64,000 nucleotides of DNA from Candidatus Nitrosocosmicus franklandus (GTDB taxonomy: Archaea; Thermoproteota; Nitrososphaeria; Nitrososphaerales; Nitrososphaeraceae). The stretch lies in the NCBI RefSeq assembly GCF_900696045.1, contig NZ_LR216287.1:1593854-1657853 (forward strand), written 5' to 3'. Position 1 is the stretch's first letter. Each line of letters begins with the position of its first letter. This document shows positions 41,092 to 47,961 of the stretch, in pieces. Below the pieces are notes generated by a model, which ran no database searches, was not told where the DNA came from, and was given only the letters and a program-made list of their open reading frames with translations. The position numbers and the translations under genes are program-made.

Positions 41092-41706
41092 ATGGAAAAA
41101 AGTGGCCAGTTCTATTCCGATGTTAATAGTGCTATCTCAGTGATAAATACGCAAATCTCTCAATTGAAGGCAATTGACAAAAAGTTTTCTAACATCGATG
41201 CCAATTTTAGCTCTAAAATTACACAAAATATTAAATCTGGAAATAATGCACGTGCCAATATCATAGCAAATGAACTATCTGCTATGAGACGTCTCAGAAA
41301 GAATGCACAAAATGCGAGTTTGGCTCTAGAGGTAATTGCGATTCGTTTTACTAGCATTAATGAATTCTCTGCAATAATGGATACTATCAATCCAACTGTT
41401 GAAATGCTGCAAGATATACAGAAAGATCTCTCAAAGGCTGTCCCTTCTGCAACTAATGTTCTAACTGAAATTCATACTTTAGCTGATGACGTGTTAACCA
41501 ATTCTAACGTTAATACCGATACCGGTAAAATAGGTTCCGTGGTAGATAAAGACGCCCTATCTATACTAAACGATGTTCAGAATAGTTTGGAAGATGAAGC
41601 CAAAGAGAAACTTCCAGAGGTTCCAGAATCTGTAATTTCTAAAAGACCTGCTATTAATTTAAAGGACGATATAATAAACAGTGGACAGGTTTTGTTAGAG
41701 AGTTAG
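41092..41706 (+). CDS. ESCRT-III/Snf7-like protein (CdvB paralogue)
   Basis: 204 residues. The helical core (ARANIIANELSAMRRLRKNA, NASLALEVIAIRF, SAIMDTINPTVEMLQDIQKD) is the Snf7/CdvB pattern, and the C-terminal EKLPEVPESVISKRP resembles the proline-rich MIM2 ligand of the CdvC ATPase MIT domain. It should polymerise on membranes during cell division or vesicle scission. cdvA and cdvC are not adjacent, so this may be one of several thaumarchaeal CdvB paralogues. Confidence 0.82.
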   Translation: MEKSGQFYSDVNSAISVINTQISQLKAIDKKFSNIDANFSSKITQNIKSGNNARANIIANELSAMRRLRKNAQNASLALEVIAIRFTSINEFSAIMDTINPTVEMLQDIQKDLSKAVPSATNVLTEIHTLADDVLTNSNVNTDTGKIGSVVDKDALSILNDVQNSLEDEAKEKLPEVPESVISKRPAINLKDDIINSGQVLLES

Positions 41707-41794
41707 CTGGTTATTCTATTTCAATCAAAAATTATTCATTTCTTTATTTGTGATAGTTTTATTTATATACTAATAATCAGACTGCTTTTTGTAG

Positions 41795-43864
41795 TTGAGA
41801 ATTTCATATCTGCCCTCCTCTGAATCTAAACGTGGAATTTTAGAATCTACCTCCAAGAGAGTTAGAATGATTTTTTCAGTTATGGCTAGTCCCAACAGAA
41901 TAGACATTCTACGAATTCTTAATAATAAAGGGCCTTTAACATATTCTGAGCTAAAGTCATTAGCTGGATTCAAGTCAAAGAAGGAATCGGGAAAATTTGC
42001 TTATCACTTAAGAAAATTATTAAAACAATCTCTTCTTGGGTTGAATAAATCAGAAAGGCGATATACTATTACGAATCTGGGTAAATTGGTATTAAACTTA
42101 GCTAGGCAAATTGAAGAAAAATCTATTGTTGAGAGTGGAAAGATGTATGTGAGAACCAGTCATCAAACGATTGAAGAATTCAACTCTCATAAGATAATAC
42201 AAAGCCTAGTTAGAGAAGCAAATTTGTCATTAGAACAGGCCACAAAAATTACTGAGGAGGTAGAAAATAAGGTGTATAAACTGTCGACTTCTTACTTAAC
42301 ATCTCGATTATTAAGAGATTGTGTAAATAACATTTTGTTAGAGCATGGCCTTGAAGATCAAATGAACAAATTGATTCGAGTCGGAATTCCAATATTTGAT
42401 CTAGATAAAATGCTTAACAATAGTAGTAACTCCTTGAGGAATGGGATAAATGATCTAATTATCGAAATATCAAGGGATGTTCTTTCTGAGTATTTTGTAG
42501 CTAGTTTTCAAAAAGATATATTGGATATGCATTATAATGGTGAAATTCATTTGGATACCTTGGGCCATTGGGGAATTGGACCTGATACTGTTTTTATTGA
42601 TGTTGAACAAGTAAAAAATAATCTCGATCTCAAAGGTAATTTTCTATTTTTGCCACGTACATCGGACCAAAGTAAACTCAATTTGTTTTTACCTATTATA
42701 ATATCATTGATTCAAAGAGAAGTGTCCAAGGAAATAGTAATAGAAAATATTGACAAAATTCTTCGCGACTATCAAATGGATAAAATACCTGAGTATCTCT
42801 CTTTATCGCTAATTTCATCTTCCATTTCTATGCAACATATGAATTCTCCTTTCGTGACACTTGTTATATCAGCAAAAGAGGGTGAAGGTTTATTAATTCA
42901 AATGTTAAAAGGATATGCTTTATATGTTGAGCAAGTGGCGTTACCTAATTTTGGCTTATTCATCACCCATTCAAAATCCCTGACTAAAAATCTTGTGTCA
43001 GAAGTTGCAAAAGTAATAAAACTTGGAGGTAAAATTGTCTTATCACAAGAGTCGATCCTTAGTAGCAGAGGCATTCGTAAGTTAAATGATGTTTCAATGC
43101 TACCAAATATAGTACTGAATTCTCTGACTATAAATCTGCCTCGATTGGCATATCAGTCAAATAAGGACGAAACCTACTTTAGAACCAAACTCGCACTGTT
43201 AATGAAACCATCAATAAGTGCATTGCTATTGAAAAAAGAAATGTTGTCGGAAAATATTCGTCATGGTATTCTACCTGCGTTATCCAATGTTGTTAGCTTT
43301 CCGGAAGTAGGTTCTACTACTACAATTGTTAATATAGCAGGATTAAACGAATCTATATACGATATTTTAGGATATTCTAAAAAAGACGGGTTTGATACAG
43401 TTAAGAAAGTGATACAGACAGCTAATGATATATTACTTGGTTTCAGTAAAAACAATACCGAAAAATTTGGAGTTTCTATGATTAATGACGGCAGTTCGTC
43501 AAGATTTGTTGTTTTAGATTCGGACAAATTTGGTAAACTGACTCATGATTTTCAATCATATTCACAAGGAGTGATAATCACAAGAGAAATACTAGAAAAT
43601 GACAATCCAATTTCCGAAAATCTGAGACAATTAGATAATCTTATGACAGGCGGGTTGTATATAAGACTTGACATAACTGGTGCTTCTGAGCAGGAACTGA
43701 TTGATATCATAAATATGGCTATTCCTACAATTCCTTACTTTGATATATTTGAAAAACAATTTATATGTTCAATATGTGGAAAACGGAATATCAAGTCTGG
43801 TGTTTGTTTGTCCTGTGGATCTAGTAATCTCATCGAGATTAATCAATTACCGAGCAAAATGTAG
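41795..43864 (+). CDS. Winged helix / ATP-cone / inactive class III RNR-like fusion, putative dNTP-sensing regulator
   Basis: 689 residues from TTG 41795. Order: ArsR-type winged helix (~22-104: FSVMASPNRIDILRILN, FAYHLRKLLKQSLLG), ATP-cone (~118-190: RTSHQTIEEFNSHKIIQSLV to LLRDCVNNILLEHGL), then a ~460-residue NrdD-like body (YNGEIHLDTLGHWGIGPD, LNSLTINLPRLAY, VNIAGLNESIYDILGYSKKD) and a C-terminal zinc ribbon CSIC...CLSC (658-674). The only Cys outside the ribbon is Cys176 in the ATP-cone, so the thiyl-radical cysteines are missing, and no RVxGY glycyl-radical motif follows the ribbon. It cannot act as a class III reductase. Directly upstream of nrdJ. Inference: an NrdR-analogous regulator sensing ATP/dATP. 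Confidence 0.85.
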   Translation: MRISYLPSSESKRGILESTSKRVRMIFSVMASPNRIDILRILNNKGPLTYSELKSLAGFKSKKESGKFAYHLRKLLKQSLLGLNKSERRYTITNLGKLVLNLARQIEEKSIVESGKMYVRTSHQTIEEFNSHKIIQSLVREANLSLEQATKITEEVENKVYKLSTSYLTSRLLRDCVNNILLEHGLEDQMNKLIRVGIPIFDLDKMLNNSSNSLRNGINDLIIEISRDVLSEYFVASFQKDILDMHYNGEIHLDTLGHWGIGPDTVFIDVEQVKNNLDLKGNFLFLPRTSDQSKLNLFLPIIISLIQREVSKEIVIENIDKILRDYQMDKIPEYLSLSLISSSISMQHMNSPFVTLVISAKEGEGLLIQMLKGYALYVEQVALPNFGLFITHSKSLTKNLVSEVAKVIKLGGKIVLSQESILSSRGIRKLNDVSMLPNIVLNSLTINLPRLAYQSNKDETYFRTKLALLMKPSISALLLKKEMLSENIRHGILPALSNVVSFPEVGSTTTIVNIAGLNESIYDILGYSKKDGFDTVKKVIQTANDILLGFSKNNTEKFGVSMINDGSSSRFVVLDSDKFGKLTHDFQSYSQGVIITREILENDNPISENLRQLDNLMTGGLYIRLDITGASEQELIDIINMAIPTIPYFDIFEKQFICSICGKRNIKSGVCLSCGSSNLIEINQLPSKM

Positions 43865-44192
43865 GCATATTACCGGGTTTTGACTCTTGCGCTTTGTTGC
43901 TAAATGTGTCAATTTCCATTAAGTAATGCGAAGCGGTTAGTGTTTACAATAAAATTGCGAATATGTAATGTTAAACTAGACAGTATAATCGTATGATCTT
44001 TCGTTTGCTATTTAATTTTAACTGTGTACACATAATCGTTATTTTTTGACAAATGAGGTGTATACACGCAATAGAGTTTTAACTACAAAACGGTCCTTAG
44101 CGATAGAGCTTTTTGAAGATATCTTAACTCTTAATTTTCTAAATAAGCTATCGAAATTAATATAAACGATTTATAAAATATATAAATGTTAT
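43865..44192. other. nrdJ upstream region
   Basis: About 330 non-coding bases holding two palindromes (44023-44032, 44058-44067), a CGATAG/CTATCG inverted pair (~44101 and ~44150), and the promoter. TATA-like TTAATATAAAC at ~44157-44167 would give a nearly leaderless nrdJ transcript. Confidence 0.5.
44023..44067. promoter_or_regulatory. Two GTGTAYAC palindromes upstream of nrdJ
   Basis: TGTGTACACA (44023-44032) and GTGTATACAC (44058-44067) are each perfect palindromes, centres 35 bp apart, sharing a GTGTAYAC core. They lie ~90-140 bases before the nrdJ TATA box. Candidate operators for the ATP-cone winged-helix protein encoded immediately upstream; they resemble the general symmetry of bacterial NrdR boxes but not their full consensus. 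Confidence 0.5.
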
Positions 44193-46952
44193 ATGGCTGA
44201 AACTGATCTTCGTGAATCAAAAAGCAAAACCATTCTACACATTAAAAAAAGAAATGGTACAATAGTGGACTTTGAGCAATCAAAAATTTCAAATGCGATT
44301 TATAAAGCATTAGTTGCAACTGGTAAAGGGGATCACGATTTAGCTGAATTACTTGCATCAAAATTGGTAAACAAGATCATTAAGAGCGATTACTTAGAGT
44401 CTATTCATAAGGACCATGTACTTAGTGTTGAGGATGTTCAAGACATGGTAGAGTCTATATTGATTGAAGAGGGTTTAGCTGAAACCGCTAAAGCATATAT
44501 TCTATACCGTCATGAGAGACGAAAATTAAGAGAAGTGAAGATGAAGATCTTAAACAAGAAAGATCTAGACGAGGTTGATAAATCATTAGATGTTAATTCG
44601 CTACGAGTGTTATCTTCAAGATATTTGCTGAGGGATAATAATGGTGAAATAATAGAAGGTCCAAAACAATTATTTGAACGAGTGGCAATTTTGGTTGCAA
44701 TCTCGGATGTTATACATGATCCACGTATATTTGACTTTAAAGGTCATTATTCGCAGAATCTTTCCGAAGCAGAAGTTTATTATAAGAAATTGGATGATTT
44801 CGATAACAAATTAAAAATTGGAGGTTACTATTTAAATAAATATCATTTTGAATCTCTCATTAGGTCATACATAGACGAAGCAAGATCTGGTAAAATGAAG
44901 GTAAGTTTTAAGGATCTGTTAAGACTGATTGCAGAAGGTCAAATGAATAGTCACGTTAATAAAATTTTAGAATATTACAATCTAATGGTTTCAAATGAAT
45001 TTCTTCCCAACACTCCAACCCTTATGAATGCTGGAGCTAGATTGGGACAGTTGTCTGCTTGTTTTGTCCTTGATATGCCTGACGATATGTATTCTATTAT
45101 GAAATCATCCACTGACGCAGCTATGATATTTAAATCCGGAGGCGGGGTTGGAATAAATTATTCAGATCTTAGACCTGAGGGAGATATTGTTGCATCAACC
45201 AGTGGAGTTGCATCCGGACCCACGTCTTTTATGCAAATAATTGATTCGATTACTGATGTAGTCAAGCAAGGAGGGAAACGTCGTGGAGCAAATATGGGCA
45301 TATTAGAATCTTGGCATCCCGACATAGAAAAGTTCATTACAATGAAAACTAAACCTGGAATGTATGAAAATTTTAATGTGAGCGTAGGAATTTGGTCAGA
45401 TTTCTGGCAATCTCTTGTAAATAAAGAGGACCATAAATATTCTCTTAAAAATCCCAGAACCAAAGCTACCATGAAAAACATCGACTCGCACCAATTGATG
45501 GAGCTGATAGCACTAAGTGCATGGAAGAGTGCTGAACCTGGCGTAATATTTTTTGATAATATCAACAAATACAATCCTTGTATCAATGCCAAAGGTGGTC
45601 CACTGAGAGCGACAAATCCCTGTGGTGAACAATCTCTCTATCCATACGAATCTTGCAATTTAGGATCTATCAACTTGTCTAAATTTGTAAAAAGAAAAGC
45701 TGATGGCATGTACGAATTTGATTGGCCAAAATATGAACAGTCTATAAGGAAAGCTACCAGATTTCTTGATAATATCATAGATGTAAATAAATATCCGGTA
45801 GAGGAAATTGATGTTAATACAAAATTAACTAGGCGTATTGGCTTAGGAATTATGGGTATAGCTGATTTGTTATTTATGCTGCGTATTCCATACGATTCCA
45901 AAGAAGGGTATGAATTTATGAGTAAACTGGCTGAAACCCTGTCTTATTTTAGTATGGATGAAAGCGTAGTTATAGCGAAATCTCGCGGAGCATTTCCATT
46001 GTTTGAAAAAACTGAATATAAAAATGGTAGTGTTCCATTATCTGGTTATTACGAAATACCCAAGGATTTACATTGTTATGATTGGGATTCTTTAATTGGA
46101 AAAATTAAAACTTATGGAATCAGAAATTCATGGACTACTACTATTGCACCTACAGGGACATTGTCAATGATTTCGGATGTATCCAATGGGGTAGAACCAG
46201 TATTTGCTTTGGTATTTGAAAAACGTGTTACAGTTGGCCGATTCTTTTATACAAATAAAGTGTTTGAAAATGCATTGAAAGAAAATGGTCTCTATACGGA
46301 TGAAATTTTATTAAAAATCGCAAATAATTATGGTTCCGTACGAGGAATTGCCGAAATACCTGAGTGGATGCAAAGAGTATTTGTTACCGCCATTGATATT
46401 CATTGGGCTGACCATATTATGGCTCAAGCCGTATGGCAAAAGTGGATTAGTAATGCAATAGCAAAGACAATTAATATGCCTGGGGATGTAACTGTCGAAG
46501 ATGTAAAATGTGCATATTTGCTTGCACATGAATTTGGATTAAAGGGAGTTACTATATACAGAGATGGATCAAGAAATGAACAAGTTCTACACATAACTGG
46601 AGATGATCGTGAAAAAAGATTCCATGTTGCCCCTAGTAAATATTTACGTGATTTTGTAAAGGCAAATGTGAACGAACCTTACGTGATCGAACAAATTTCA
46701 CCAATTTTCAGAGATTATGGTGCCACCGAACAAAAATCTAAAGCAAATGAGGGAATTGATATTCTACTCAAGTCTGATATCACAGAAACAAGTCCCTCTC
46801 TAGGTAAAACAAAATCTGAACTATTTACCAATTCCATTTCTACGACAGAAAACGATAAAGAAGCTTGTCCGGTGTGCAAAAATTTTCTGATTATTACAGA
46901 AGGATGTAATATGTGTATAGAGTGTGGATTTAGCAGTTGTGGTGCTGGGTAA
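44193..46952 (+). CDS. nrdJ: Adenosylcobalamin-dependent ribonucleotide reductase (class II)
   Basis: 919 residues. N-terminal ATP-cone (ILHIKKRNGTIVDFEQSKIS to AYILYRHERRKL), then the catalytic barrel: LPNTPTLMNAG, GQLSACFVLDMPD (first redox Cys), GGGVGINYSDLRP, NPCGEQSLYPYESCNLGSIN (Cys, Glu and second Cys), and APTGTLSMISDVSNGVEPVF. A C-terminal Cys-rich tail CPVC...CNMCIECGFSSCG renews active-site thiols or binds zinc. Makes deoxynucleotides using B12, which thaumarchaea produce themselves. Start is ATG 44193. Confidence 0.96.
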   Translation: MAETDLRESKSKTILHIKKRNGTIVDFEQSKISNAIYKALVATGKGDHDLAELLASKLVNKIIKSDYLESIHKDHVLSVEDVQDMVESILIEEGLAETAKAYILYRHERRKLREVKMKILNKKDLDEVDKSLDVNSLRVLSSRYLLRDNNGEIIEGPKQLFERVAILVAISDVIHDPRIFDFKGHYSQNLSEAEVYYKKLDDFDNKLKIGGYYLNKYHFESLIRSYIDEARSGKMKVSFKDLLRLIAEGQMNSHVNKILEYYNLMVSNEFLPNTPTLMNAGARLGQLSACFVLDMPDDMYSIMKSSTDAAMIFKSGGGVGINYSDLRPEGDIVASTSGVASGPTSFMQIIDSITDVVKQGGKRRGANMGILESWHPDIEKFITMKTKPGMYENFNVSVGIWSDFWQSLVNKEDHKYSLKNPRTKATMKNIDSHQLMELIALSAWKSAEPGVIFFDNINKYNPCINAKGGPLRATNPCGEQSLYPYESCNLGSINLSKFVKRKADGMYEFDWPKYEQSIRKATRFLDNIIDVNKYPVEEIDVNTKLTRRIGLGIMGIADLLFMLRIPYDSKEGYEFMSKLAETLSYFSMDESVVIAKSRGAFPLFEKTEYKNGSVPLSGYYEIPKDLHCYDWDSLIGKIKTYGIRNSWTTTIAPTGTLSMISDVSNGVEPVFALVFEKRVTVGRFFYTNKVFENALKENGLYTDEILLKIANNYGSVRGIAEIPEWMQRVFVTAIDIHWADHIMAQAVWQKWISNAIAKTINMPGDVTVEDVKCAYLLAHEFGLKGVTIYRDGSRNEQVLHITGDDREKRFHVAPSKYLRDFVKANVNEPYVIEQISPIFRDYGATEQKSKANEGIDILLKSDITETSPSLGKTKSELFTNSISTTENDKEACPVCKNFLIITEGCNMCIECGFSSCGAG

Positions 46953-47022
46953 ACGATCACCCCTTTTTCAATCTAAAGTATATGTATATGTATATGTTTA
47001 CAAATTTATTATCTAGTTGTTT

Positions 47023-47961
47023 ATGGCGAAAAATAGGTTCTTTAACCGTAATGTAGTTTCTATACGCGATTTCGATCGGGATGATTTCTCATATCTTTTT
47101 GATGTTACTGATAAAATACAAACATTAAAATCCAAAGAACGTGGAGAAATTGCAAAAGGACTAATTCTTGGTTATATTTTCTATGAATACAGTACTAGAA
47201 CAAGACTTAGCTTCGAGTCTGCCATGTCCTCTATTGGCGGCCGATCTTTGGGGATTTCTGATGTTGATTCCTCTTCGATCATGAAAGGTGAAAGCTATGC
47301 GGATACAATAAAAACGATTTCCTTATACTCAGATGTAGTTCTTATACGTCATCCATCTGATGGTTCTAGTAGATATGCTTGCGAAATATCTCAAAAACCT
47401 GTTATTAATGGAGGAAGTGGAAGTGAAGAACATCCAACTCAAGCTATGTTGGATATTTACACGATATTTAAAGAAAAGAAAAAGATTGATGGTTTATCCA
47501 TCGGCATAGTCGGTGATTTAAAATATGGTCGGACAGTTTACTCTTTAATTTATGCTCTATCTAACTACAACGTAGATATTCACTTAGTTTCTCCGGCCGT
47601 ATTAAGAATTCGAAGTGAATCAATTTATGATATTTCACATAAGGTCAATATGCAACAACACCTTGAACTATCTGATGATCTTTTGCAAAAGCTAGATATA
47701 ATTTATGTAACCCGTATTCAAAGAGAACGGTTTCCTGATTTGCAGGAATACAAGAAGATTCAGGGATTATATACCATTGATGAAAATATTCTAAAAAAGT
47801 CAAAACCGAATGTTTCTATTCTTCATCCACTACCACGAGTAGATGAAATATCTCCATCGATTGATAATACTGTGAATGCTCTGTATTTCAAACAAGCTGC
47901 CTATGGAAAAGAACTACGAGCAGCTTTGTTGTCTATATTACTACATGAGAATCCTTTTTAA
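47023..47961 (+). CDS. pyrB: Aspartate carbamoyltransferase catalytic subunit
   Basis: About 312 residues. Carbamoyl-phosphate site YEYSTRTRLSFESA, SIMKGESYADTIKT, VLIRHPSDGSSRYA, GGSGSEEHPTQAMLDIYTI and LHPLPRVDEI complete the PyrB pattern. Second step of pyrimidine synthesis. ATG 47023 is preferred over TTG 47017. The regulatory subunit gene pyrI, commonly adjacent in archaea, is not in this window. Lies 70 bases after nrdJ on the same strand, linking two nucleotide-synthesis genes. Confidence 0.95.
   Translation: MAKNRFFNRNVVSIRDFDRDDFSYLFDVTDKIQTLKSKERGEIAKGLILGYIFYEYSTRTRLSFESAMSSIGGRSLGISDVDSSSIMKGESYADTIKTISLYSDVVLIRHPSDGSSRYACEISQKPVINGGSGSEEHPTQAMLDIYTIFKEKKKIDGLSIGIVGDLKYGRTVYSLIYALSNYNVDIHLVSPAVLRIRSESIYDISHKVNMQQHLELSDDLLQKLDIIYVTRIQRERFPDLQEYKKIQGLYTIDENILKKSKPNVSILHPLPRVDEISPSIDNTVNALYFKQAAYGKELRAALLSILLHENPF

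Follow-up and report, generated by a model that had tools for sequence, protein, structure and literature searches.

Catalysis by class III ribonucleotide reductases (NrdD) depends on a glycyl radical, on a cysteine that forms the thiyl radical and on partner cysteines. NrdR, the bacterial repressor of ribonucleotide reductase (RNR) genes, is a protein of 140-220 residues in which the DNA-binding domain, an N-terminal zinc ribbon (PMC9110341), precedes an ATP-cone. NrdR is rare in archaea (PMC9110341, PMC12176259), and how RNR expression is adjusted in archaea lacking it appears to be an open question. In the window studied here (the whole stretch of 64,000 nucleotides, from the 2.84-Mb, single-contig genome of Candidatus Nitrosocosmicus franklandus), the gene preceding nrdJ encodes what is probably a DNA-binding protein that regulates RNR in response to nucleotides, built on a retired class III reductase. 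Its family offers a concrete and testable candidate for the missing control in ammonia-oxidising archaea, which rank among the most abundant soil and marine microbes. Within the open-access literature searched, no earlier description of this architecture was found.

Architecture and distribution of the candidate regulator

The candidate regulator gene (41795-43864 of the window; this and all features below are on the forward strand) starts with TTG and is an open reading frame for 689 amino acids. An ArsR-type winged helix occupies residues 17-113 (41843-42133), with a Pfam HTH_20/DUF7347 match at residues 26-100. It is followed by an ATP-cone at residues 117-196 (42143-42382), for which PF03477 scored 40.1 bits over residues 117-192, passing the gathering cut-off of 25.8. 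Residues 197-655 (42383-43759) form a catalytically dead NrdD body that keeps the NLPR motif at 447-450 and is without the thiyl and finger-loop cysteines. Next comes a CxxC...CxxC zinc ribbon (C658, C661, C671 and C674; 43766-43816), after which the glycyl-radical loop expected of NrdD is missing. The Pfam model NRDD (PF13597), representing the C-terminal part of NrdD, matched residues 439-680 (E 3.8e-18), and TIGR02487 gave 53.9 bits, below its equivalog cut-off of 326 bits. In a relative from another class, PF13597 extended over positions 10-562 at 252 bits.

An AlphaFold2 model of the full-length protein, with an alignment of 42 relatives as input, reached a pLDDT of 86.6 and a pTM of 0.77. 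Its 36 best PDB matches were class III RNRs (best E 9.4e-19, alignments of about 690 columns), although the alignment behind the model and the profile search includes three intact NrdDs, which may help such matches; the single-sequence family matches (PF13597, TIGR02487) are independent of them. A model of the N-terminal 200 residues resembled the ATP-cone of NrdR (9a6n, 9fxk, 7p37) and also matched the ArsR-type winged helices of CadC, HlyU and NolR. The modelling thus confirmed, as a predicted structure, a full-length class III NrdD fold joined to an ArsR-type winged helix, an ATP-cone and a C-terminal zinc ribbon. A first-pass annotation, made from the letters of the window, had proposed these same four parts, and both Pfam and the predicted structure bear it out, with the NrdD fold recovered when the model was compared with known structures.

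A search for the candidate regulator gave a match in 57 of the 61 genomes from its family, in 181 of 200 from the class and in 204 of 299 from a phylum-wide sample, although the weaker hits of this last sample include short ones that could represent ordinary NrdD or ATP-cone proteins. The family thus occurs in almost every ammonia-oxidising archaeon and also in many genomes from the phylum's other classes. So wide a presence in the class (181 of 200 genomes) shows that the architecture is not a product of chance. The window genome groups with Candidatus Nitrosocosmicus, its nearest named relatives being 69-83% identical in this protein, and we suspect that the genomes of other classes carrying the gene belong to Bathyarchaeia and relatives. 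PF13597 gave a single match per genome, namely the candidate regulator gene, in 12 of 12 tested genomes of the window's family, and the second matches inspected in a neighbouring family fell within the same gene. With PF13597 confined to this gene, these archaea carry a NrdD descendant without a working NrdD; within the class, full-length NrdD was seen only in a few deep members.

Other proteins with related domains were also seen. Short relatives of about 540-617 amino acids, without the zinc ribbon (L149:7780-9633, L150:6959-8611 and L151:6683-8302), adjoin, divergently, a carbamoyltransferase gene, which is of the ornithine type in L149, the one tested. The third ATP-cone of the window genome is a 150-residue protein consisting of little else (L003:1438-1890, in the G000:C1:1895545 region; 40.9 bits), in which a zinc ribbon was not found and beside which a transposase-like reading frame lies.

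Neighbouring reductase genes and the promoter regions

In the window, the candidate regulator gene is followed by nrdJ (44193-46952), encoding an adenosylcobalamin-dependent class II RNR of 919 amino acids with its own ATP-cone (TIGR02504, 745 bits), and by pyrB (47017-47961), encoding aspartate carbamoyltransferase. In several other families, too, an RNR slot lies between the candidate regulator gene and pyrB. Among the 67 ammonia-oxidiser loci whose downstream sequence extends for 1.5 kb or more, nrdJ lies 60-643 bp downstream in 64 (median gap about 258 bp). Part of this linkage is general synteny, because thiolase and OB-fold genes are likewise linked to the candidate regulator in ammonia oxidisers. 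The stronger evidence comes from outside this group. The adjoining RNR belongs to other NrdJ subtypes in five other families (32-46% identical to the window NrdJ), the slot is filled by a gene for glutaredoxin together with an intact nrdD in four loci of other classes, and nrdJ is adjacent yet convergent in four loci of one family (f13). Since the neighbour varies in these ways, the RNR link exceeds inherited synteny. No RNR link was seen within the sequence examined in two deep families (f11 and f14), and RNR is absent beside the candidate regulator in 15 of 20 loci of other classes, many of which have pyrB instead. Adjacency to an RNR gene, reported for nrdJ at first pass, recurs across lineages and RNR types, and the possibility, raised at the same time, that homologues are never linked to RNR genes can be set aside.

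Further features of these loci deserve mention. A 204-residue Snf7/ESCRT-III-like protein is encoded directly upstream of the candidate regulator (41092-41706); by similarity, this neighbour is present in Nitrososphaeraceae loci and not in Nitrosopumilales loci. At one locus of another class (L147:5608-9509), the thiolase gene, OB-fold gene and candidate regulator are ordered as in ammonia oxidisers, and this neighbourhood is probably very old. The nrdJ beside the candidate regulator at L157:3265-6711 holds an intein with a LAGLIDADG endonuclease.

If the protein regulates RNR as we propose, its ATP-cone, and perhaps also the old reductase effector pocket, would bind ATP/dATP or other dNTPs. 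Binding would alter dimerisation or geometry, the winged helix would then bind, or be released from, DNA close to the adjoining RNR gene, and RNR expression would be matched to the dNTP pool. The bacterial job of NrdR would thus be done by a different DNA-binding domain together with a whole reductase body. By analogy with NrdR, we lean towards repression rather than activation. NrdR (TIGR00244, cut-off 124.65 bits) has no match in the window's own genome and is absent from the class, leaving an NrdR-like role vacant. Across the phylum it exceeded the cut-off in 14 of 200 genomes, all of one family (f18), and some genomes of that family carry the candidate regulator gene and NrdR together.

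A near-invariant winged helix should read a near-invariant site, and the main weakness of the regulator reading is that no shared operator was found. Whereas NrdR binds paired NrdR boxes at RNR promoters in an ATP/dATP-dependent way, a universal box was looked for here and not found. The nrdJ core promoter block, TATCGAAATTAATATAAACGAT...ATG (44125-44200), is conserved among Nitrosocosmicus relatives and is a candidate control region; a second copy lies at C1:2709746, with no recognisable dNTP gene beside it. The core promoter of the candidate regulator gene, TAGTTTTATTTATATA (41745-41794), just upstream of the TTG start, is conserved as well. The nrdJ promoters are conserved within clades only. 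Two palindromes in the nrdJ promoter of the window, TGTGTACACA and GTGTATACAC, 35 bp apart (44022-44067), were considered as paired operator boxes and rejected, being present in none of the relatives' nrdJ promoters, even where the regulator is 83% identical. They are the conspicuous palindromes of the DNA at 43.9-44.2 kb, which the first-pass annotation had put forward for a test of binding.

Nitrosotalea and Nitrosopumilus relatives share another conserved element, GGTGTCAACAAAATTGA, ahead of nrdJ, and some of them have a second dyad, CCAAAG-n5-CTTTGG; GGTGTCAACAAAATTGA was not found upstream of nrdJ in the window's genus. As whole-genome counts of this pattern did not exceed those of a control pattern, it is a local site at most. 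In the same relatives (L088, L096, L117 and similar), a stretch of about 75 bp upstream of the nrdJ TATA box is strongly conserved and contains the dyads TCAACAAAATTGA and, in some, CCAAAGTCGATCTTTGG. EM motif searches of nrdJ promoters recovered either the region of the start site or weak motifs and no universal element, and those of the candidate regulator's promoters recovered a clade-limited core promoter not common to nrdJ. Rfam gave no match, and hence no known cobalamin riboswitch.

Because no common operator was found despite a near-invariant winged helix, two rival explanations are kept alive. The protein might be a nucleotide-responsive transcription regulator of a wider or different gene set, such as pyrimidine, arginine-pathway or replication genes, with nrdJ not its main target. 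An invariant winged helix lacking a common nrdJ operator is what such a regulator would show, and many relatives from other classes have pyrB or an ornithine carbamoyltransferase gene next to them. This explanation is nevertheless unlikely, since an RNR gene has repeatedly stayed beside the candidate regulator through changes of RNR type and even of orientation.

Conserved parts and loss of reductase chemistry

Mean pairwise identity over 79 orthologs is 96% in the winged helix, 81% in the ATP-cone and 45-51% in the reductase body; relative to the window's copies, NrdJ is about 68% identical on average and the winged helix 91%. As the winged helix and ATP-cone are the most conserved parts, selection has acted mainly on these predicted DNA-binding and nucleotide-binding domains. 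Within the ATP-cone, V119, R120, E127, E141, R174 and L181 are invariant across the family and K/R133 is kept; we take E127 and K/R133 to be equivalent to ATP-contacting residues of E. coli NrdA. In E. coli NrdR, Lys53 touches both nucleotides (PMC12176259). Its equivalent in our alignment is T121 in the window protein, and threonine in 35 of 39 members. Judged by these residues, the nucleotide pocket is only partly kept; nucleotide binding is predicted, with the Lys53 equivalent lost.

The second rival places the action on the RNR protein. Pseudoenzymes often bind their active relatives, and the protein might be a pseudo-subunit that binds NrdJ or NrdD, exerting allosteric control through its ATP-cone and using the winged helix for protein contact or dimerisation. 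It adjoins many RNR types, several of which have no ATP-cone of their own (L132, L154, L155 and L157), and the lack of a recovered operator at the nrdJ promoters would also be expected. However, the most conserved part is the winged helix, at 96%, and the RNRs beside it share only 27-64% identity from one family to another, so that repeated co-adaptation would be demanded. Moreover, we know of no mode by which a class III body docks on a class II RNR. We therefore consider action on the RNR protein quite improbable, slightly more so than a wider regulon.

C176 is the sole cysteine before the ribbon in the window protein, which stops 15 residues past its last cysteine without an RVxGY motif. 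The first-pass annotation had been right on both points, and C176 proved not to be conserved, being kept in 11 of 79 ammonia-oxidiser orthologs; over these, C658, C661, C671 and C674 are invariant and are the only conserved cysteines. None of the 39 members in an alignment that includes three intact NrdDs possessing them has an FCxDW-type cysteine or a SCYQCCAYC finger loop, and a few have a single stray cysteine near the finger-loop position. A hidden set of radical glycine and cysteines, which might have overturned the first interpretation, was thus found in none of these members. In a tree, seven intact NrdDs fall outside a single clade that holds the dead proteins (SH-aLRT 100). By its residues, the family is catalytically dead in every member examined. 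That the protein is a functional but unusual reductase is therefore extremely unlikely: the NLPR motif and zinc ribbon persist, but the thiyl and finger-loop positions are devoid of cysteine, the glycyl loop is missing and outside the ribbon no cysteine is conserved.

A decayed radical loop is still recognisable in several relatives of other classes, reading SRVSAKHLPAP or SRSSATYIPL as compared with SRVTGYYQAVSGW of intact NrdD; in the case of SRVSAKHLPAP, an intact NrdD with SRVTGYYQAVSGW is encoded two genes away. At L137:3525-8455, and in L142, L143 and L144, three genes stand in one row: a dead NrdD-type candidate regulator, one for glutaredoxin and an intact nrdD. Because some lineages still have an intact copy next to a decayed one, the conversion of an enzyme into a probable regulator can be traced. 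The enzyme chemistry was lost in a deep ancestor, and within one class almost all descendants have retained the protein.

Comparison with NrdR, NrdD and ArsR-type regulators

A broader and more tentative proposal, which we regard as possible though doubtful, is that the family constitutes a phylum-wide regulator class: a whole reductase would have become a transcription factor, its ATP-cone and old substrate/specificity pocket would sense dNTP level and balance, and it would control whichever RNR adjoins. If true, archaea would have solved independently the problem for which bacteria use NrdR. For the window protein, the suggestion made at first pass of an archaeal NrdR analogue built from an inactivated reductase stands as regards the dead NrdD with its winged helix and ATP-cone, the RNR linkage and the absence of NrdR; it falls short as regards a shared operator.

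Like NrdR (TIGR00244), the candidate regulator combines an ATP-cone with a domain for DNA binding and shows linkage to RNR genes, and the NrdR ATP-cone is among the nearest PDB matches for its N-terminal module. In contrast to NrdR, its DNA-binding domain is an ArsR-type winged helix, and its zinc ribbon is C-terminal and inherited from NrdD. At 689 amino acids it is several times larger, adding a dead NrdD body of 460 residues, and the Lys53 equivalent is replaced; the architecture is thus not that of NrdR.

With NrdD (PF13597, TIGR02487) it has in common the fold, the order of ATP-cone, barrel and zinc ribbon, and the NLPR motif, but it is without the catalytic cysteines and the glycyl radical, has gained an N-terminal winged helix, and occurs in genomes without any other NrdD. 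With ArsR/SmtB-type winged-helix regulators (HTH_20, DUF7347) it shares the fold of the DNA-binding domain, whereas no metal-site role was seen and the domain is fused to nucleotide-binding and reductase domains. By defining features, the candidate regulator is neither NrdR nor NrdD; most likely, it works like NrdR and descends from NrdD.
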